This document shows, piece after piece, positions 13,074 to 23,887 of a stretch of DNA of 52,098 bases. Position 1 is the first letter of the stretch, and every line of letters starts with the position of its first letter. The DNA lies in assembly GCA_017629515.1 (NCBI GenBank), contig JAGBXB010000100.1, positions 1 to 52,098 of the forward strand, written 5' to 3'. The notes below the pieces were generated by a model that saw nothing but the letters and a program-made list of their open reading frames with translations, made no database searches and was not told the origin of the DNA. Source of the DNA: Lentisphaeria bacterium. GTDB taxonomy: Bacteria > Verrucomicrobiota > Lentisphaeria > Victivallales > UBA1829. The position numbers and the translations under genes were made by a program.

Positions 13074-16000
13074 ATGAATCTGATCTTTCAGGAGTCTTTT
13101 GATTCTTTTCTTAATGGCCTGCCCGGAGCATGGTATGTGGAAAGCAATTCCGATCTCAAGGAAGTGCCAGCTTTCCGCTGCGGGGAAAAATGTATCGAAT
13201 TTCTTTCAGCCGGCAATAAGTACCTCCCCATCATTCCCGCACTTACCGATTTTATTGTGGAAGGAACTTTTTCTTTCAGTTTGAAAGCCGCCGGTTCTTT
13301 CGGTATGTATATTTCCTTCGGCTACGATCCCGGAACGGGAAGGGGGGAAACTCTTCATATCAAACGCCCCAATGATGAAAAGTTCCTTTACCTGGAAAAA
13401 GGTTCCATGCGGGCAAATATTTATACTGTTGCGGAAAGCAGAAAATTTCCTGTGGAAGATGAAGTTTTCAACGCTCCTTTTAATGTGAAACTGGAACGGA
13501 AGGGTACAAATCTGCAAGTGGAACTTTTCGGTATGAAAACCACTTTCAAAGTAAAGAAAAATTCCGGAATGATCGCTTTTTCCCGTGACCATTTCTACGA
13601 TATCCTCAAACTGACAAAAATGGAGATAAGCGGCAGCAATGCTCAAAAAGGGAAAAAACTTGCTTCTTTCACCGTTTCTCTGCCTCAACAGCATACATTT
13701 TACCCCATTTACTGCGATGTCGTACTTACCGATTACGGCTCCTGTATGGATGCTTCTCTCAAACTGCACGGCAGTACCCAGGAAACAGAAGCAGGGGAGG
13801 GCAATTACCATGCCGTCCGTTGTGATAAATTGCGCAATCCCTACTTGAAAGTCATTACAAAGGAAAAAACGGAAAAGTTTGTGATTTTTGACCGGGAACT
13901 GATCCTTGCCGTCCAAAGTCTTGTAAAACCCTATTTCTATGAACGCCTTTACAAGCGTCCCCCCTGGCCCTTTATCCGCAATGTGCGTTTTATGAAGCCG
14001 GAAATACCTTTCAATCTTGCCATCGGCGCAGATTCTTACATACACTCCACCTTGCGGCAGATGGCGCAAAGCCCCTCTGAAACTGTTTTTGATGTGGAAG
14101 GAAATGTGCTCTATTCCGGTCAGGGGATCACGGATGAAAATACCTTTAAATGTGAGTTTTTCTCCCAGAAAAAGAAAAAGATGATGGCAAAGATCCCCAA
14201 AAGCGATCCCCGGTATGATGACGCCATCCGTTTTCTGGAAAACAACCACTTTTTCTTTGAAAAGGAGGATGCGCTTTTCTCCATCCGTCTTACAGGAAAA
14301 GCTTTCCTGCCCGGCTCTTACGAGGTCACATTGGAGGATGCTTTCTTCCGGTGTATGAAAAAATTGAAATGCAAAACGGTATTTTCCACAGGAGAACTGG
14401 GAGAAACGGTGCTGAATATCGCCGATATTACTTTTGAAAAAATTTCTTCTTTGCCTTGCGGCGTATATCATTTGCGAGTCAAAAGTACTGATCCATCCCT
14501 GGAAGCATGGGAGGAATATTGCGCTTTTGAAGTCATGAGCAATAAAAAGAATGCACTCTGTCCGCCGTTGGCTTCCGGATTGCCTTATTTGTATAACAGC
14601 CGGACGGAAACAAGGGGATTGCTTACCGATGGCGTGGAAGTCTGGAAAGGGGAAAGCAGTGATCTGCCCCACTATCATGCCTGCGCCAACTTCCTGCCCA
14701 AAGCGGCAAGGGATTTTGATGTGATCCCTACCGTCCACGCTTATCAGAGAGAGTTTTTTCTGTGGCTGGGTTCCCGCTGTGCAGATAAACCCGCCTGGGA
14801 AGATAATCTGGATCTGATCGCAAAATCCGATTATTTGAATATCTGTACCTATTTCAATCAGGTTTCCAGTTTGTGGCGTATGGCTTACGGCGGAAACAGA
14901 CTCGTAAAGTTTTATGAACTGGCAAAAAGCCTTAATGACCCGGAATTTGATCTGAAAGAATTGGAAAAAGCAGTTAAAAAGATCAAAAAAGAGAGCACTT
15001 TCCGGAAAGATGTCACCTCATCGAGCAACTCTTTCAAAGATATCGTCAGTTACCATAATTATTATGTCATGGCGAAAAAGTACTGGGAAAAGTGGTTGGA
15101 TGTACTTAATGAAGATATGGCGGAACAACATGCAACAATGTTGAAAGAATTGCGGAAATACAGTCCGAATCTCCGGTACTCCATGTATGGACCCGCCCAT
15201 ATTTATGTGGGACATCTGAAAGGACATGATTTCTCCCGCTTTCTGTGTGTGGATAAGATCGATCCGTCCAATTTGGGATTCTGGCAGTATGAAGATTATC
15301 CCTTCGCCTGCCGTTACAAACTGGATCGGGGTTCCTACTATCTTACAAGTCACCTTATGACCCATCCTGAAGCAAGGATCTATCCGGAAGTTTATGCCGG
15401 TGCCGGCGGTTTCGGCTGTCCGGATGGTGCTGTATTTTTTGCCCATCCCCCTCACGGTATCCGGTATAAAGAATACCCCAACCGTATCATCCGGCAAAGT
15501 TACGAATTCGTATATGCTTCCGCCCACATAGGAAACGATGGAATGTACCATTACTGGGAAAACCGCGGCTTCCAGGCGTGTTCTTTCAACCGGGAATGGT
15601 ATAAAGCACTCCTTACCGGATGGGGGGTGGTGACAAGTCATGCTCCCGCGCGTCCCTGGAGATCGCCGGCATTTGTTACAAGCGACAGTTCCCGCAGGGC
15701 ACATAATCAGCAGATCCTGACTGATGTTGCCCTTGATCTTATTATTGACGTCCGTAATACTGCCGCTGAAGATGTGCCTTTCCTCTATCTCGAATCAAGA
15801 GCGAACTCTCTTTGCAACGGCTTCCAGGTTATGGAGGAGAATCTGCTTTCCCTTACCAAAAACGATACCCCTCTTCTTGTTCTGCCTCCTCTCCGGGGAA
15901 TGAGTGAAAAAACACTGCTTCATATCCGTAAACTGCACAAGGAAGGGGTGAACCTTATTGCCAGTGAAGATGTGGAAGGATTGGAAGATCTTTTCGGAGT

Positions 16001-16562
16001 AAAGGAAACCGGGAAAAAGGTGAAAGTAACGCGTGTGGTTGGAAAAAATGGTTTCCTTGAAGGAAATTATGAAATATGTGATGATGATCTCTGCACCGGC
16101 TCTTATGTTCTCAACGGCGCAAAAGTGCTTCTGGATGCGGAAATACCGGTTCTCACCATCAAAAAGAATGGAAAGGCTTCTGCCGCATTCTTCAATGTGC
16201 CGCCCCACATGATCAAAGGCGACCGCCTCCACTTGCGTCTGGGGTATGGAAAAGACAGTATCAGTTCCTTTATGACAAAGGCCGTGGGGGAACTCTTCCG
16301 CCTCCTGGGGGATGTGGAAGTCTTTGCCGATAAGGGAAGAATACAGGCATGCCGGACAAAACAGGGGAAAGATGTCGTTCTTATCAGCAATGAGGATGAT
16401 GATAACAGAATAACTGCGGTCGTGACGGTGAAAAAGAGTGCCGGCAGAAAATCTGTGGAAAGTTGTGACAAACCCTATGCTGTCCTGCCCGCAGAAAACG
16501 GATATATGAAAATCCGGATAAATCTGCCTGCCGGAGAAGCTGCTGCAATAGTCTTCAGATAA
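13074..16562 (+). CDS. Large cytoplasmic protein of unrecognised family, tandem paralogue 1 (possible glycoside hydrolase)
   Basis: The 1162-residue product has no signal peptide and belongs to no family I can name. Residues from about 1 to 190 look like a concanavalin-type beta-sandwich (opening LIFQESFDSF and GAWYVE), followed by more beta-rich sequence. From about 500 to 850 there is a possible TIM-barrel region with dense aromatic and acidic residues (LPHYHACANFLPKAARDF, FWQYEDYPFACRY, YPEVYAG). From about 930 it resembles the GATase-like domain that follows the barrel in GH42-type enzymes (LLVLPPLRGM, KEGVNLIASEDV), and the end is beta-rich. The adjacent gene is a paralogue with the same length and order. 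An AAGGAA site supports the start. A role on an imported glycan is inference. Confidence 0.6.
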   Translation: MNLIFQESFDSFLNGLPGAWYVESNSDLKEVPAFRCGEKCIEFLSAGNKYLPIIPALTDFIVEGTFSFSLKAAGSFGMYISFGYDPGTGRGETLHIKRPNDEKFLYLEKGSMRANIYTVAESRKFPVEDEVFNAPFNVKLERKGTNLQVELFGMKTTFKVKKNSGMIAFSRDHFYDILKLTKMEISGSNAQKGKKLASFTVSLPQQHTFYPIYCDVVLTDYGSCMDASLKLHGSTQETEAGEGNYHAVRCDKLRNPYLKVITKEKTEKFVIFDRELILAVQSLVKPYFYERLYKRPPWPFIRNVRFMKPEIPFNLAIGADSYIHSTLRQMAQSPSETVFDVEGNVLYSGQGITDENTFKCEFFSQKKKKMMAKIPKSDPRYDDAIRFLENNHFFFEKEDALFSIRLTGKAFLPGSYEVTLEDAFFRCMKKLKCKTVFSTGELGETVLNIADITFEKISSLPCGVYHLRVKSTDPSLEAWEEYCAFEVMSNKKNALCPPLASGLPYLYNSRTETRGLLTDGVEVWKGESSDLPHYHACANFLPKAARDFDVIPTVHAYQREFFLWLGSRCADKPAWEDNLDLIAKSDYLNICTYFNQVSSLWRMAYGGNRLVKFYELAKSLNDPEFDLKELEKAVKKIKKESTFRKDVTSSSNSFKDIVSYHNYYVMAKKYWEKWLDVLNEDMAEQHATMLKELRKYSPNLRYSMYGPAHIYVGHLKGHDFSRFLCVDKIDPSNLGFWQYEDYPFACRYKLDRGSYYLTSHLMTHPEARIYPEVYAGAGGFGCPDGAVFFAHPPHGIRYKEYPNRIIRQSYEFVYASAHIGNDGMYHYWENRGFQACSFNREWYKALLTGWGVVTSHAPARPWRSPAFVTSDSSRRAHNQQILTDVALDLIIDVRNTAAEDVPFLYLESRANSLCNGFQVMEENLLSLTKNDTPLLVLPPLRGMSEKTLLHIRKLHKEGVNLIASEDVEGLEDLFGVKETGKKVKVTRVVGKNGFLEGNYEICDDDLCTGSYVLNGAKVLLDAEIPVLTIKKNGKASAAFFNVPPHMIKGDRLHLRLGYGKDSISSFMTKAVGELFRLLGDVEVFADKGRIQACRTKQGKDVVLISNEDDDNRITAVVTVKKSAGRKSVESCDKPYAVLPAENGYMKIRINLPAGEAAAIVFR

Positions 16563-16580: not shown

Positions 16581-19500
16581 ATGGAAAAGAAAACAAAGAC
16601 GACCCTGATTTTTCAGGAAACATTTGAGTCTTCCCTCAATGATCTTCCGGGCGCGTGGTATGTGGAACGCAACTCGGATTTGAAGGAAGTTCCAGCCATC
16701 CGCAGAGGGGAAAAGTGCATTGAATTTCTTTCTGCCGGAAATAAATATCTTCCCATTATCCCCGATGTAACTGATTTTCAGCTGAAAAGTACTTTTTCTT
16801 TCAGCATCAAAGCCGGCCGTCTTTTCTGTCTTCTCATCTCTTTCGGCTATGATACTGTAACCGGCAGAGGACAGGCATTACGCATTGCCAGAGCGCAGAA
16901 TTCCACTGTGACCACCTTTGAAGTCGGTACTATGCACGCCAATATTTTTACGGCGACAGAGAAAAAAGAATTCCCCATGGAAGAGGATATTTTCAATCAT
17001 CCCTTTGATCTGGAAATGGAAGTAAAAAACAATACTCTTACTATTGATACTCTGGGAGTGAAAACTTCTTTCAAGGTCAAAAAATCCAGCGGGGCAATTG
17101 CCATCAGCAGAGAACACTTCTATGATATATTGAAACTTACCCGGATGGAAATATATGCTCCCTCCACAGCGAAGGGGAAGAAAATCGCTTCTTTCACTGT
17201 TTCCATGCCGGAAGATATCACATTCTATCCCATTTACTGCGATGTCGTCCTTACCGATTACGGAACCTGTCTGGATGCTTCTCTCAAATTTCACGGCAGC
17301 AGTCAGGAAACAGAAGCAGGGGAGGGGACTTATCACGGGATGCGGAACGATCAGCTTATCCGGCCCTATCTGAAAGTCCTGACCGGGGAAAAAATTGATA
17401 AATATGTGATTTTCGACCGTAAGATCTTCCTTTGCGTCCAGAGCCTTGTGAAGCCCCACTTCTATGAAAGACTCTGTGAAAAAGTGCCCTGGCCCTTTAT
17501 CCGCAATGTGCGTTTTATGAAGCCTGAAGGCAAATTCGATCTTGCCATCGGTGCAGATACCTATGTGCCTGCCACCTTGCGGGATATGGCACAAAGCCCC
17601 TCTGAAACGATTTTCGATTTGAAAGGCAATGTTCTTTATTCCGGACTTGGCTTTACGGAAAAAAAGATCAAATGTGAATTTATCTCCCAGGAAAAGAAGA
17701 AAGTTCTTGCTCTTCTGCCCAAAACCGATCCCCGGTATGATAAAGCAGTGGAGTTCCAGAAAAACAACCACTTCTTCCTGGAAAAGGAAGACGCTCTTTT
17801 CAAGATCCTTCTTACAGGAAAAGAGTTGCTGCCTTCTTCCTTTGAGGTCATTCTGGAAGATGCGTTCTTCCGGGCTGTTAAAAAACTCAAATGCAAAGTA
17901 AGTTTTTCGGAACGGAAAGTGGGAGTTTCTTCCTTTGCTTCCGCACTTTTGGAAGTGGAAAAAATTTCTTCTTTGACTTGCGGCGTATATCACTTGCGCA
18001 TCAAAAGTACCGATGTCATCTTCCCCGCATGGGAGGAATATTGCGCTTTTGAAGTTTTGAGTACAAAGAAAGATGCACTCTGCCCGCCGCTGGCTTCGGG
18101 TCTTCCCTATATTTACAATGGAAGAACGGAAACAAGGGGACTTCTTACCGATGGATTTGATGTCTGGATGGGGAAAAGTACAGATTTGCCCCACTATCAC
18201 GCCTGTTCCAACTTCCTGCCCAAAGCAGCGAGGGATTTTGATGTGAATCCCACCGTCCACGCATTGAAAAGAGAGTCTTTCCTGTGGCTGGGGACACGCT
18301 GTGCCGATGATCCCATGCCGGAACATAATCTGGATCTTATTGCCAAAAGCGATTATGTGAATGTATGCGAATACCTCAATCAGTTCTGTGCATTGTGGCG
18401 GCACACCTACGGCGGAAGAAGACTGGAAAAACTCTATAAATTTGTAAAGGAAACCAAAGATCCTGATTTTGATCTCAAAAGCATGGAAAAAACCATAAAA
18501 GCGTGGAAAAAATCCAAAAATGAAAACGGGATCTGGGATTGTTTTGCTTTCAAAGATTATCTCTCTGAACACAACTACCGGGTACTTACTGAAAAATACT
18601 GGGAAGAATATCTGGATATGTTCAATAAAGATGTGGTGGAAGAACACCGGGAATTTCTCAAAGAAATGAAGAAGGTAAATCCCAAACTCAAAGTTTCCAT
18701 GTATGGGCCGGCCGCCATTTATGCCGCCCACCTGAAAGGTGCAGAATTTTCCAGGTATGTTGGGGGTGATGATTTTACACAGGAAGAGATGGGCTTCTGG
18801 CAGTATGAGGATTACCCCTATGCCTGCCGGTACGGGATCGAAAGAGGTTCCTACTATATGACAAGTCATCTTCTGAATCATCCCGGCGCAAGAGTTTATC
18901 CTGAAATTTACACTGCCGGGGGTGGACAGGGCTGTCCGGATGGAGCTGTATTCTATGCCCATCCGCCTATGGGCGTCCGTCCTGTGGAATATCCCAACCG
19001 TATGATCCGCCAGACCTATGAATTTGCTTTTGCCACCGGACACTTCCGGGAGGATGGGTACCATTTCTGGGAGAACAAAGGTTTCCAGGCCTGCGGCTTT
19101 ACCAGAGCGTGGTTCAAGACTCTCCTTACCGCATGGCGGGCGGTTGCCGATTATATCCCGGAAAGACCTCTCTGCTCTCCTGCATTTGTCACAAGCAACG
19201 GTTCCCGCAGAGCCCATGAAAGAATGCTGAACTCCTACGGCAATATCATAGATGTACGCAATACCGCTTCCGAAGATGTGCCTTATATCTATGAACAAAC
19301 CCGTCAGCACCATCTTTGCAACGGCTTCCAGGTGATGGAGGAAAATCTTATACTTCTTACTTCTGCCGATACCAATGTACTTGTTCTGCCCCCCTTGAAA
19401 GGAATGAAGAAAGAGACATTGGCGCATATCCGCAAACTGCATAAGGAAGGAGTGGGACTTCTTGCCTGTGAAGATGTAAGTGGCTTGGAAGATCTTTTCG

Positions 19501-20066
19501 GTGTAAAGAATACGGGAAAGAAAAAGACCATTACCAAAGTGACCGCAGCAAAAGATTTCTGCAATGGCGGAATGGAGATCTGCGATGATGAAAGATGCAA
19601 AGGTTCTTACATTGCCGACGGTGCAAAAGTGCTTCTGAACGCGGAAATACCGGTTCTCACCATCAAGAAAAACGGCAAGGCTTCTGCCGCATTCTTCAAT
19701 GTGCCGCCCCATCTTGTGAAAGAGGACAGACTGCATTTGCGTCTGGGATACGGTAAAGACGGAATAAGCGATCTTATTTCCCTGGCGGTTGCTGAAGTGA
19801 TCAAACTTCTTTCCACGCCGGAAGTTACTGCCGATAAAGGCAGGTTGATCGCCTGCAAAGCCAAAAGCGGGGAAACCCTTGTCTTTATCGGCAACGATAA
19901 TGATGACGCTGCGGAGATCTTTACGGTAAGGATCAAAAAAGCTCCGGGAAGAAAAGCTCTTCTCAAATGCGATAAGCCCTGCACAGCGTTGAAAGGGGAT
20001 AAGAATTATATGGTATTCCGGGTGGCTCTGGAAGCCGGGGATGCCGCTGTTATGGTATTCCAATAA
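16581..20066 (+). CDS. Large cytoplasmic protein of unrecognised family, tandem paralogue 2
   Basis: The 1161-residue protein aligns end to end with its upstream neighbour; by eye about two-thirds of residues match in the N-terminal hundred. Motifs kept in both include GAWYVE, DLKEVPA, CIEFLSAGNKYLPIIP, FWQYEDYP, DGAVF, a YPNR block and the C-terminal LFGVK and LHLRLGYGKD. It starts 18 bp after the first copy behind AAGGAG, so both sit on one transcript under the palindromes at 13007-13049. Divergence is spread along the length, so this is an old duplication whose copies may differ in substrate. Family unrecognised. Confidence 0.6.
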   Translation: MEKKTKTTLIFQETFESSLNDLPGAWYVERNSDLKEVPAIRRGEKCIEFLSAGNKYLPIIPDVTDFQLKSTFSFSIKAGRLFCLLISFGYDTVTGRGQALRIARAQNSTVTTFEVGTMHANIFTATEKKEFPMEEDIFNHPFDLEMEVKNNTLTIDTLGVKTSFKVKKSSGAIAISREHFYDILKLTRMEIYAPSTAKGKKIASFTVSMPEDITFYPIYCDVVLTDYGTCLDASLKFHGSSQETEAGEGTYHGMRNDQLIRPYLKVLTGEKIDKYVIFDRKIFLCVQSLVKPHFYERLCEKVPWPFIRNVRFMKPEGKFDLAIGADTYVPATLRDMAQSPSETIFDLKGNVLYSGLGFTEKKIKCEFISQEKKKVLALLPKTDPRYDKAVEFQKNNHFFLEKEDALFKILLTGKELLPSSFEVILEDAFFRAVKKLKCKVSFSERKVGVSSFASALLEVEKISSLTCGVYHLRIKSTDVIFPAWEEYCAFEVLSTKKDALCPPLASGLPYIYNGRTETRGLLTDGFDVWMGKSTDLPHYHACSNFLPKAARDFDVNPTVHALKRESFLWLGTRCADDPMPEHNLDLIAKSDYVNVCEYLNQFCALWRHTYGGRRLEKLYKFVKETKDPDFDLKSMEKTIKAWKKSKNENGIWDCFAFKDYLSEHNYRVLTEKYWEEYLDMFNKDVVEEHREFLKEMKKVNPKLKVSMYGPAAIYAAHLKGAEFSRYVGGDDFTQEEMGFWQYEDYPYACRYGIERGSYYMTSHLLNHPGARVYPEIYTAGGGQGCPDGAVFYAHPPMGVRPVEYPNRMIRQTYEFAFATGHFREDGYHFWENKGFQACGFTRAWFKTLLTAWRAVADYIPERPLCSPAFVTSNGSRRAHERMLNSYGNIIDVRNTASEDVPYIYEQTRQHHLCNGFQVMEENLILLTSADTNVLVLPPLKGMKKETLAHIRKLHKEGVGLLACEDVSGLEDLFGVKNTGKKKTITKVTAAKDFCNGGMEICDDERCKGSYIADGAKVLLNAEIPVLTIKKNGKASAAFFNVPPHLVKEDRLHLRLGYGKDGISDLISLAVAEVIKLLSTPEVTADKGRLIACKAKSGETLVFIGNDNDDAAEIFTVRIKKAPGRKALLKCDKPCTALKGDKNYMVFRVALEAGDAAVMVFQ

Positions 20067-20089: not shown

Positions 20090-20121
20090 GGCAGGATGGG
20101 GTTTCTCATCCTGCCTTTTTT
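20090..20121 (+). terminator. Rho-independent terminator after the paralogue pair
   Basis: GGCAGGATG (20090-20098) pairs with CATCCTGCC (20107-20115) across an 8-nt loop and is followed by TTTTTT. It lies 23 bp after the second paralogue stop. Confidence 0.9.
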
Positions 20122-20228: not shown

Positions 20229-22679
20229 TCAATCTTTCACGATCACGGCAAGGAGAACAAGATCTTCATCACTTGCTCCTTCAATACTGTGCCCTTCACC
20301 GCTGTTGGTAAGAGAACCGTCTCCGGGGAAAAGTTCACATTCCACTCCGTTATCATTATACTTTCCCTTTCCGGAAAGTATATAGTAAAGTTCCGCTTCC
20401 TTTTCATGCACATGATAGCCGATGGATTCCCCTTTTTTCAGGGTGATCACAGTAAATAACCGCATATTTGCCGGAAGTTCCCCTTTGGCTCCCTCCCAGA
20501 TATGGGCAAAAACGGCATCCCCGTTGCCGCCACGCACATTGTGGCGGATCTCAATGGCTTTTTCTTCTGCTCTTCTGATCATAAGAATTCCATACTGTTT
20601 TACCGGGCCGAAAATATTGCCGTACATCTTTTCATTGAGGGATTCCACAAAGGCACTGACCTTGGTGAATGTACTGCACGGGTCGGTTGTCTGGTCCATG
20701 CAGTCCCCGTCCAGACGCAACAGCGGCAGATTGATCTTCTTCAACTCTTCCTGCAAGTGTTTGGAGAAGCAGCTGTCCGCAAGAGAGCAACGGCTGAATC
20801 CATGATTATACAGGATACAACCATTCAAATGGGCGTCTTTTGTATTCTGGCAGATATATTCCACACGCAATTTCGGATCAAGATAACCTACGGTCAGCAA
20901 TTTTCTTGCCAGAGAACGGTAGGGATCATCCGGATCAAGTGCGGCCCAGTCCACAAAGTTCACTTCTTCAAAGACGATAGGCGCATTGCAGGTCAATTCG
21001 ATGAAGTCCAGCAATTTTGTATCATAGAAAGGCGGCAGGTGCAACCACAGAATACGGTGGGTTTCCTGTTTGTCCAGCCCCAATTTTTCCAGTACTTCTC
21101 TTCTTGCAAGCAGATCTTCATAATACTGTTTCTGGATATCCACCATCTCCTGTTTTCCCCACAACTGGGAGAAAAGCACTGCATTGTAAACGGCTTCCGC
21201 TCCACGCAGCAACGGCGGACTGTTCCAGCGCAAATAGTTGCATTTTTTGGTAATGGCTGCCGCTTCATTGGAAAGGTGACAGGCTTCCGCAAGTCTTCCC
21301 TCATCCAGTTTTCTGCCGAAGGCTTTTTCCATTCCGGCAACGGCTGACTTCAAACCTTCTGCAATAACTTCCACTGTCTGTTCGCTTTCCAGACGCACCG
21401 GAGTTTGCAGAGAGAAGAATTTATCCATGAAATTATTTTCTCTTGCCAGATCCTGGAAGATCCTTTCCCCCTGCTGACAGGGCTGGGATGTGGAAACAGC
21501 AAAATCCGCTTTGGGAAGTTCCACTCCTTCCAATACCCGCAGGAAAGAACAGGTTTCCGCAGAGAATCCTTTGTATGCCGCTACATCCAGAGCTTTTCTC
21601 ACCCGTTTGGAATTTCTGGCGAACAATGCCGCATATGTTTCCAGTGTGAGGATCCTTGTATCAAAGGCATTGAGGATCTCTGTGGGGAAGAAAAGGTTTC
21701 TCCATACAAGAGGTCTTCCATCATCGGAAGCGCGGCCCAGAAATTCTCTTCTTGTGGAGGAGGCACGCATGGGAACAGATTTCAGGGGGATATCCGGATA
21801 GAATGTCTTTTTCTCTTCCAGAGTTCCTTTGAGAGAATAGTTCTTTCTTGCAAGGCAGGCGGCTCCCAATGCTCCCATGACTTTATGATATTCCGGAATG
21901 ATGATATTATTGCCGGAGATCTCTTTCAGATAGTAGGCGACCGCTTTATTGGCGGCTACCCCGCCCTGGAAGAGAATATCGCCTTTGTAAGAGAAAAGGA
22001 TCTCTCCAACGCCGGAAATAATGGTACGGGCTTGTGCACGGCAGGCTCCGGCAATGATCTCGCCGATAGGATAACGGTTTTTGAACTTGTTGATGGAAGT
22101 TGCACTCAAAACGGCGCAGACGCTGGAAAATTCCAAGCGGGAATCATAATTGACTTTTTCCGCCATCTCTTCCACCGGAATACCCAGTTTCAAGGCAACT
22201 GAATCCAGAAACGCCCCTGTTCCGGCAGCGCAGATCCCGCTCAGTTTGGAGACCCACATCTGCATGGCATCATTGTAAAGCATGGCTTTGGAGTCCTGTC
22301 CGCCCACGTCCAGAATCGCTTTGCAGTTGGGGTAGTAGTGGGTTGCACCTGCCACATGGGCAGAAACTTCGCTTACATGGAAATCATAGGGGATGAAACG
22401 GTCAAGATCTTCCACGATCTGACTGCCGGTAACGCCGGTAAAGAGAATATCCTCTCTTTTTACTTCCGCTTCTTTGAGAAAATCATCTACAATGACTTTC
22501 AGTGAACCAAGATTACAATGCCCGCAATTGGAGCAATGACCGGAACAGGTGAGTTTTGCAGACTCCACCGGTCTTGTTCTCTGGTATGTAGAATGTTTCA
22601 CCTTACCTTCTGTGGTCAGGAGAACTGCTTTGATAGTGGTGGAACCAATATCAACACCTAAAAAGTATTTGTTTTCCAT
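20229..22679 (-). CDS. Fused 2-hydroxyacyl-CoA dehydratase activase / HgdB-like domain / cupin
   Basis: The 816-residue chain joins three modules. Residues 1-280 are a BadF/BcrA-type ASKHA ATPase (GVDIGSTTIKAV, GQDSKAM) with the two bridging-cluster cysteines C150 (SGICAAGTGAF) and C188 (SSVCAVLSAT). Residues from about 330 to 720 resemble the HgdB/BcrB component that holds an iron-sulfur cluster, with Cys in NGCILYNHGFSRC and LLRLDGDC. Residues from about 740 to 816 are a cupin with GYHVHEKEAELYYILSG. An extra C-x3-C-x2-C-x2-C lies at residues 45-55. The activase normally donates a low-potential electron, driven by ATP, to a separate dehydratase or double-cubane protein; here donor and acceptor share one chain. 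The substrate is unknown. The start at 22679 is divergent from the PHP gene. Confidence 0.8.
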   Translation of the reverse strand: MENKYFLGVDIGSTTIKAVLLTTEGKVKHSTYQRTRPVESAKLTCSGHCSNCGHCNLGSLKVIVDDFLKEAEVKREDILFTGVTGSQIVEDLDRFIPYDFHVSEVSAHVAGATHYYPNCKAILDVGGQDSKAMLYNDAMQMWVSKLSGICAAGTGAFLDSVALKLGIPVEEMAEKVNYDSRLEFSSVCAVLSATSINKFKNRYPIGEIIAGACRAQARTIISGVGEILFSYKGDILFQGGVAANKAVAYYLKEISGNNIIIPEYHKVMGALGAACLARKNYSLKGTLEEKKTFYPDIPLKSVPMRASSTRREFLGRASDDGRPLVWRNLFFPTEILNAFDTRILTLETYAALFARNSKRVRKALDVAAYKGFSAETCSFLRVLEGVELPKADFAVSTSQPCQQGERIFQDLARENNFMDKFFSLQTPVRLESEQTVEVIAEGLKSAVAGMEKAFGRKLDEGRLAEACHLSNEAAAITKKCNYLRWNSPPLLRGAEAVYNAVLFSQLWGKQEMVDIQKQYYEDLLARREVLEKLGLDKQETHRILWLHLPPFYDTKLLDFIELTCNAPIVFEEVNFVDWAALDPDDPYRSLARKLLTVGYLDPKLRVEYICQNTKDAHLNGCILYNHGFSRCSLADSCFSKHLQEELKKINLPLLRLDGDCMDQTTDPCSTFTKVSAFVESLNEKMYGNIFGPVKQYGILMIRRAEEKAIEIRHNVRGGNGDAVFAHIWEGAKGELPANMRLFTVITLKKGESIGYHVHEKEAELYYILSGKGKYNDNGVECELFPGDGSLTNSGEGHSIEGASDEDLVLLAVIVKD

Positions 22680-22970: not shown

Positions 22971-23002
22971 TTGGCATTTTGAATCACTCAACGGGAGAAA
23001 AT

Positions 23003-23887
23003 ATGGATTATTACGGAAAACGATACAATGCTTACAAGGCAAATCTTCACTCGCATACAAAAAACTCCGACGGGGCATACTCTCCCGGGGAACTTATTGA
23101 GATCTATGCGGACAACTCTTATGATGTCCTTGCCTTTACCGATCACCGCAAAACCAATCCCGTTTCCACTTACGATGGAAAGGGAATGACTCTTATTTCC
23201 GGTATCGAACTGCATCCCGTCGGCCCCCGCAATCTCCCCTGGCATCTTCTGGCTCTCCATGTGCCGGAAGATTTCCCCGGAGAATATGAAAGCGCAGAAA
23301 AAGCCATTACAGCAGTTATCCTTGCCGGCGGTATCGTTTTCTGCGCCCATCCCCACTGGTGCGGCTTTTCTTCTGCAGATGTCCTTGCTTTGAACGGAAT
23401 ATCCGGTATCGAAGTATATAACTCCTCCTGCCGTTTCATCGGAAAAGCCTATAATGATCAATGCTGGGATGAACTTTCCAATGCCGGATATGTTCTGGGC
23501 GCACTTGCCGTGGATGATACCCATAATTCCAGTCATCTTTTCGGCGGCTGGACAATGATCCTTGCTGAAGATAAAAGTCCCGCTTCTCTCATGGAATCTT
23601 TGAAAAACGGCAGATACTATGCCACCCAGGGGCCTCAATTCCACCGTCTCGCCCTTAACGGCAGAATTTTTGAAGCGGAATTTACAGAGGCTGCCGAAGT
23701 GATCATTTACTTCAACAACAGCCGGGGCATCTGCGTTACCGCTCCCAATTTCCCCGATTACGGAACAAATAATATTGTCAGTTCTTTTGCAAAAGAGATC
23801 CCCGAAACTTATACCGGTCCCATCCGCTGCCGCATCCGGGATAAAGAGGGAAGATATGCCTGGACGACCCCGGTTTATGTTTCCTGA
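23003..23887 (+). CDS. PHP-domain phosphoesterase
   Basis: The 294-residue protein starts with the PHP metal site: KANLHSHTKNSDGAYSP with two His, then FTDHRKTN, then FCAHPHW, and a late Asp/His cluster (AVDDTHNS). PHP proteins are multinuclear metal phosphoesterases, for example histidinol-phosphate phosphatase or nucleoside 3',5'-bisphosphate phosphatase relatives. The residues after about 215 form a beta-rich tail. The ATG at 23003 after GGGAGA is chosen; an upstream TTG would add eight residues. It is a single gene ended by a strong hairpin. The substrate is unknown. Confidence 0.8.
   Translation: MDYYGKRYNAYKANLHSHTKNSDGAYSPGELIEIYADNSYDVLAFTDHRKTNPVSTYDGKGMTLISGIELHPVGPRNLPWHLLALHVPEDFPGEYESAEKAITAVILAGGIVFCAHPHWCGFSSADVLALNGISGIEVYNSSCRFIGKAYNDQCWDELSNAGYVLGALAVDDTHNSSHLFGGWTMILAEDKSPASLMESLKNGRYYATQGPQFHRLALNGRIFEAEFTEAAEVIIYFNNSRGICVTAPNFPDYGTNNIVSSFAKEIPETYTGPIRCRIRDKEGRYAWTTPVYVS

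Follow-up and report, generated by a model that had tools for sequence, protein, structure and literature searches.

The locus lies in a 52,098-nucleotide stretch of DNA, hereafter the window, in which one open reading frame joins an activase domain (an ASKHA ATPase of the BcrAD_BadFG type), an HGD-D electron-acceptor domain resembling HgdB and HadB, and a cupin tail (table 1). All three Pfam matches (BcrAD_BadFG, HGD-D and Cupin_2) exceed the curated cut-offs, in agreement with the original prediction, which had recognized the same three domains but left the strand unstated. A pseudogene or a chance reading frame is ruled out by strong purifying selection on the cupin and on the two-domain part preceding it (hereafter the core) alike: dN of the core is 0.05–0.06 against a dS of 1.0–1.9, and dN/dS is approximately 0.03–0.06 for the core and 0.13–0.19 for the cupin, dS being near saturation in some pairs. 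Neither a second HGD-D gene nor a second activase above the cut-off was found in the window's genome; since this genome is 82% complete, a partner gene could be absent from the assembly. A strong terminator-like hairpin (window 20090–20115) lies in the interval between a plus-strand gene and the core gene's end. Two clearly related proteins of 1162 and 1161 amino acids without a Pfam match are encoded in tandem on the plus strand (13074–16562 and 16581–20066), and a divergent plus-strand gene (22979–23887) encodes a protein with a weak PHP-domain match (5.5e-05, under the curated cut-off), a homologue of which is found downstream of the cupin in a congener (genome G001, locus L022).

Table 1. 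Positions of the features discussed, in the window unless a locus is named.
Feature	Position	Strand	Basis or remark
Core-cupin open reading frame	22679..20229	minus	816 aa, fills the whole span
Activase (ASKHA ATPase, BcrAD_BadFG), residues 7–277	21849..22661	minus	Pfam 1.2e-30
Cys4 motif C45-x3-C-x2-C-x2-C55 (C45/C49/C52/C55), inside the ATPase domain	22515..22547	minus	
HGD-D (HgdB/HadB-like) electron-acceptor domain, residues 329–681	20637..21695	minus	Pfam 2.4e-44
E347, aligned with BzdO Glu65 (catalytic acid/base) and HadB 55	21639..21641	minus	81/81
C377, predicted acceptor [4Fe-4S] ligand, HadB C84 position	21549..21551	minus	alignment; 81/81
C401, predicted ligand, HadB C117/BzdO C128 position	21477..21479	minus	alignment; 81/81
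C631, predicted ligand, HadB C346/BzdO C380 position	20787..20789	minus	alignment; 81/81
C660-x7-C668 loop (DGDC...DPCS), family-specific	20676..20702	minus	81/81
Fusion junction AAACAGTATGGAATTCTTATG; ATG = former cupin start, M700	20580..20600	minus	
Cupin_2 tail (TM1287-like), residues 696–816	20232..20594	minus	Pfam 8e-14 at 744–812; 1o4t 1.5e-20
HTH-cupin-AMP-ligase-type gene before the core	L113:56-2281, L120:3564-5846, L121:6563-7996		

Distribution and gene neighbourhood of the two-domain chain

The conserved unit is the activase–HGD-D chain of about 695 amino acids without the cupin, a single-copy protein conserved in Lentisphaeria and some Kiritimatiellae. It occurs in 70 of 388 Verrucomicrobiota genomes, once in each, with 58 of the 70 belonging to the window's own order, and a single contig scan of the GTDB species collection, on which the view beyond the phylum rests, gave 142 stretches that carry it. 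The best 80 of these 142 relatives, which are titled Lentisphaeria, Kiritimatiellae or Verrucomicrobia or are unlabelled, share 57–92% identity with the window's core, and in all 80 loci donor and acceptor form a single chain, as had been proposed. The two-domain core is widespread, whereas the form with three domains was met in no other relative. No gene of the core family was found among viral contigs, and neither a phage gene nor a defence system (for which PADLOC gave no match) is a tenable reading. Matches on plasmids are distant only, being split or long-fused; one plasmid record, from Monoglobus (L157:773-3990), carries adjacent genes for an activase-related protein, a 2-hydroxyacyl-CoA dehydratase and an activase, near dapF and LL-DAP aminotransferase. 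No paper on the family was found in the literature searched, with subscription journals mostly outside reach. The core gene is widely retained among Lentisphaeria of the gut and rumen, and its substrate would inform our view of their metabolism.

Neither a CoA-transferase nor conserved pathway genes were found beside the core, in the window or in the relatives' loci, and among the core loci compared there is no conserved pathway partner that would name the substrate. Besides the cupin, the relatives' neighbour genes, which were clustered using codon scoring, are mostly of the housekeeping type (lysA-like, tsaB-like, gatB-like and phosphomannose isomerase). The description of the gene as standing alone holds within the window but not in three or four Kiritimatiellae relatives, where an acyl-CoA-ligase-type gene lies upstream: in three Kiritimatiellae-type loci this gene, of the HTH-cupin-AMP-ligase type, ends 0–4 nt before the core, and in a fourth relative it is found at a greater distance. 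Three homologues of the HTH-cupin-AMP-ligase lie on other contigs of the window's genome (C63, C98 and C119). An obligate CoA-ligase partner was rejected, as ligase homologues are common yet their distribution within the phylum does not follow that of the core. A recurrent gene order is that of core, cupin, DAP-decarboxylase-like and tsaB-like genes (L055, L057, L059, L066, L067, L070 and others), and a DAP-decarboxylase-like gene is located downstream of the core in 21 of 82 loci. In one rumen group, a phosphomannose-isomerase-type gene, likewise of the cupin fold, replaces the small cupin after the core (L080, L081, L082, L084–L087, L089 and L094).

The cupin tail and the fusion junction

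The idea that donor, acceptor and cupin make up one conserved architecture did not survive the comparison. Among the relatives compared (two congeners and the best 80 of the 142 loci), the cupin fusion is private to the window's genome: an in-frame stop codon ends the core in each of the 80 other loci, and a conserved three-domain architecture is rejected because every relative has the cupin separate or absent. Downstream sequence of 700 nt or more was available for 77 loci; in 33 of these a stand-alone cupin gene lies on the core's strand, and 32 of the 33 begin no more than 200 nt past the core stop. The concern, voiced at the outset, that the fusion might be confined to one assembly is thus borne out for the cupin only, the joining of activase and HGD-D being conserved.

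The cupin is an accessory neighbour that was fused, probably by loss of a stop codon, in the window's genome only. In the same-genus genomes G001 and G002, the core is 91–94% identical and ends in GPVKA or GPLKA, followed by TAA, GGAG and the ATG of a separate cupin. The junction reads AAACAGTATGGAATTCTTATG in the window, AAAGCATAAGGAGACCCCATG in G001 and AAAGCGTAAGGAGAGTTATG in G002, i.e. TAA-GGAG-ATG (stop, ribosome-binding site, cupin start) in both congeners against TAT-GGAA-ATG in the window. As a single base change restores the TAA of both congeners, and the contig is of the metagenome type with the species represented here by one assembly, the TAT could have arisen as an error of sequencing or consensus, with the cupin gene separate in the window as well; we find this doubtful, since one miscall leaves the altered GGAG site and the multiple-of-three spacing unexplained. 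Between a recent stop-codon loss and a base error we therefore favour the real event, because the ribosome-binding site is altered and the frame is kept. The tail has the Cupin_2 domain and, at the sequence level, the His-His-Glu-His residues of a predicted metal site (H756, H758, E763 and H797), which are invariant in 35 cupins. The TM1287-type cupin (1o4t, a putative oxalate decarboxylase) aligns over the whole tail, metal-site residues included, but is a stand-alone protein whose own function is only putative, whereas the window's copy is fused.

Invariant cysteines and predicted cofactor sites

Twelve cysteines are invariant wherever covered in the 81 sequences of the family (45, 49, 52, 55, 150, 188, 213, 377, 401, 631, 660 and 668), and those at 467, 480, 564 and 621 are not; the twelve suggest cofactor sites additional to those of characterized relatives. 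In the activase half, C150 and C188, situated in the CAAGTG and SS-x-C motifs and conserved in 81/81, align with 1hux and 4eht and are predicted to be cluster ligands. The fold of this half matches MbdQ (the top match), HadI and HgdC with target-normalized TM-scores of 0.82–0.88 (Foldseek). With the BcrAD_BadFG ASKHA fold and two cysteines per chain for a predicted intersubunit [4Fe-4S] cluster, it has the features of an acyl-CoA dehydratase activase (archerase), its TIGR00241 score (122.6 bits) being slightly below the cut-off of 125.4.

The additional motif C-x3-C-x2-C-x2-C at residues 45–55 of the ATPase was found exactly where it had been described, and all 80 sequences that cover it share it with fixed spacing, the 81st family member being a contig-truncated fragment without that region. 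This conservation far exceeds chance, and none of five aligned solved activases has a counterpart. For this motif, an additional metal site is the likeliest reading; it may be structural or a cluster through which electrons enter. A more modest reading makes it a zinc or structural site in an otherwise ordinary activase–acceptor pair: one cubane may be beyond the reach of some of the four cysteines, which span 11 residues, and the loop has no confident fold in the AlphaFold2 model. This model (pLDDT 78.9, pTM 0.79) was built from only 45 sequences, with zero homologues for the cupin, and its low-confidence parts are the motif region 37–51 and residues 628–633 (pLDDT <50) and the cupin tail. 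The strict invariance, the anaerobic lineage and the location in an electron-donating ATPase would nevertheless favour a redox role, and we regard the zinc or structural site as possible without leaning towards it.

In the acceptor half, the profile matches HadB (3o3m_A, 9.1e-18) and BzdO (2.1e-15), and the best folds are again those of HadB (3o3m_A, TM 0.80) and BzdO (8s2r_C, 0.78; BzdO range 0.74–0.78; Foldseek). The HadB-type set of three cysteines and a glutamate is present at the residue level only; its HadB equivalents 84, 117, 346 and 55 were counted from the alignment, and 346 is a position that we take, partly from the HadB literature, to correspond to C631. C377, C401, C631 and E347 also align with Cys95, Cys128, Cys380 and Glu65 of BzdO, where the cysteines bind an open-site [4Fe-4S]-OH2 cluster and the glutamate serves as its acid/base (PMC11971306). 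An HGD-D domain devoid of cluster ligands, which would have spoken against the original prediction, is thus not what is seen. At C660/C668, HadB reads DGDQ...N; in the predicted structure the loop comes after the strand that succeeds that of C631, and the two cysteines are probably near the acceptor site.

Because of the alignment with HadB and BzdO (three Cys and Glu) and the best folds being theirs, a single open-site [4Fe-4S] cluster is predicted as likelier in the acceptor than a double cubane. A DCCP-like double-cubane [8Fe-9S] cluster reducing very small molecules (acetylene, azide, hydrazine) would suit the one-chain design, as DCCP itself is homodimeric and is served by a dedicated ATP-driven reductase; 6eno and 7yyl are matched in profile and fold, and the acceptor has five invariant and several near-invariant cysteines. 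We nevertheless judge it quite unlikely. The profile favours HadB and BzdO over DCCP (3e-6), as does the fold (TM 0.64–0.71 for DCCP; Foldseek); six cysteines ligate the double cubane, against five invariant ones here, two of which (C660 and C668) have no Cys counterpart in DCCP; and W326 (79/81) aligns with HadB W34 and is probably the equivalent of BzdO Trp46, a residue that takes up the room left by the lost second cubane (PMC11971306).

Proposed mechanism and relation to known systems

We consider it likely that the chain works as a self-contained ATP-driven low-potential reductase, a homodimer in which a shared activase cluster feeds an acceptor [4Fe-4S] cluster of the HadB/BzdO type. In 2-hydroxyacyl-CoA dehydratases (HADs), the dehydratase receives its electrons from an activator homodimer, whose two subunits jointly hold a cluster on four cysteines (PMC8473912); by analogy, the core chain would probably form a homodimer, with both halves of the machine in each chain. 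The two activase domains would share one [4Fe-4S] cluster held by C150 and C188 of each chain, and ATP binding and hydrolysis would drive an electron from it into the acceptor cluster of the same chain, a HadB/BzdO-type [4Fe-4S] on C377, C401 and C631 with one open iron beside the acid/base E347. This cluster may then reduce or dehydrate a small molecule that is possibly linked to CoA. The ATP-driven low-potential redox role suggested initially finds support in the domains, the ligand positions and the fold, while it counts against this explanation that HADs have two different dehydratase subunits and the core has one acceptor domain. A CoA-linked substrate is plausible by analogy, since CoA thioesters are the substrates of the nearest relatives and a ligase precedes the core in three loci; with the glutamate and three cysteines kept, and ligases adjoining the core or encoded elsewhere, the earlier dismissal of CoA-thioester chemistry is too strong. 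ATP-driven low-potential reduction is usually studied as a transient complex of separate proteins, and one chain with donor and acceptor would fix a 1:1 stoichiometry and could ease the observation of electron transfer.

In an acyl-CoA-specific form of the self-contained reductase, the chain would be a true 2-hydroxyacyl-CoA dehydratase or an acyl-CoA reductase. That its closest relatives, HadB and BzdO, are catalytic subunits speaks for this, as do the CoA ligase directly upstream in the Kiritimatiellae loci and the ligase homologues of the window's genome; it is made rather unlikely by the lack of CoA-transferase and pathway genes, the loose co-occurrence of ligase and core, the absence of a separate electron-storing beta subunit and a HadB equivalog score (69.5 of 750 bits) far under the cut-off. 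A one-polypeptide ATP-driven super-reductase, passing electrons from a Cys4 entry cluster via the activase cluster to a non-standard C377/C401/C631/C660/C668 site and acting on a substrate beyond HAD, benzoyl-CoA reductase (BCR) and DCCP chemistry, seems to us improbable.

Membership of the HAD, BCR or DCCP groups is not claimed, because equivalog scores are far below the cut-offs (47 of 350 bits for the DCCP equivalog NF040772) and the subunit plan differs. The core shares with HadBC and HadI (3o3m and 4eht; (R)-2-hydroxyisocaproyl-CoA dehydratase) the activase fold with its cluster cysteines and, with HadB, the acceptor fold, three cluster-Cys positions, Glu and Trp. These are, however, three separate chains with a heterodimeric dehydratase, whereas a single HGD-D domain is found in the core chain and in the 82%-complete genome, and the Cys4 insert and C660/C668 are features of the core. 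The class I benzoyl-CoA reductases BzdNOPQ and MbdONPQ likewise have a BzdO-like acceptor with equivalents in the core of C95, C128, C380 and Glu65, but consist of four subunits, including the double-cubane BzdN, and BzdO His131, which forms the acid/base pair with Glu65, is aligned with Gly404 (Ala in 8/81) of the one-chain core. DCCP:DCCP-R (6eno, 7yyl), of the same superfamily, resembles the core in combining an ATP-driven donor with a homodimeric acceptor (the core's dimer being a proposed one) and differs in its separate chains and weaker profile and fold match. The premise that activases and their partners are usually separate proteins was overstated, as single-chain activase fusions are already known; the 1475-residue Listeria protein WP_014600632.1, with two BcrAD_BadFG domains and DUF2229, holds activase and partner-type domains in one chain, as the core does, but its second domain is DUF2229 with no PF06050 match, it is twice the core's length and it has no Cys4 motif. 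The core stands apart in its short PF01869+PF06050 chain, its invariant Cys4 insert and its C660/C668 loop.
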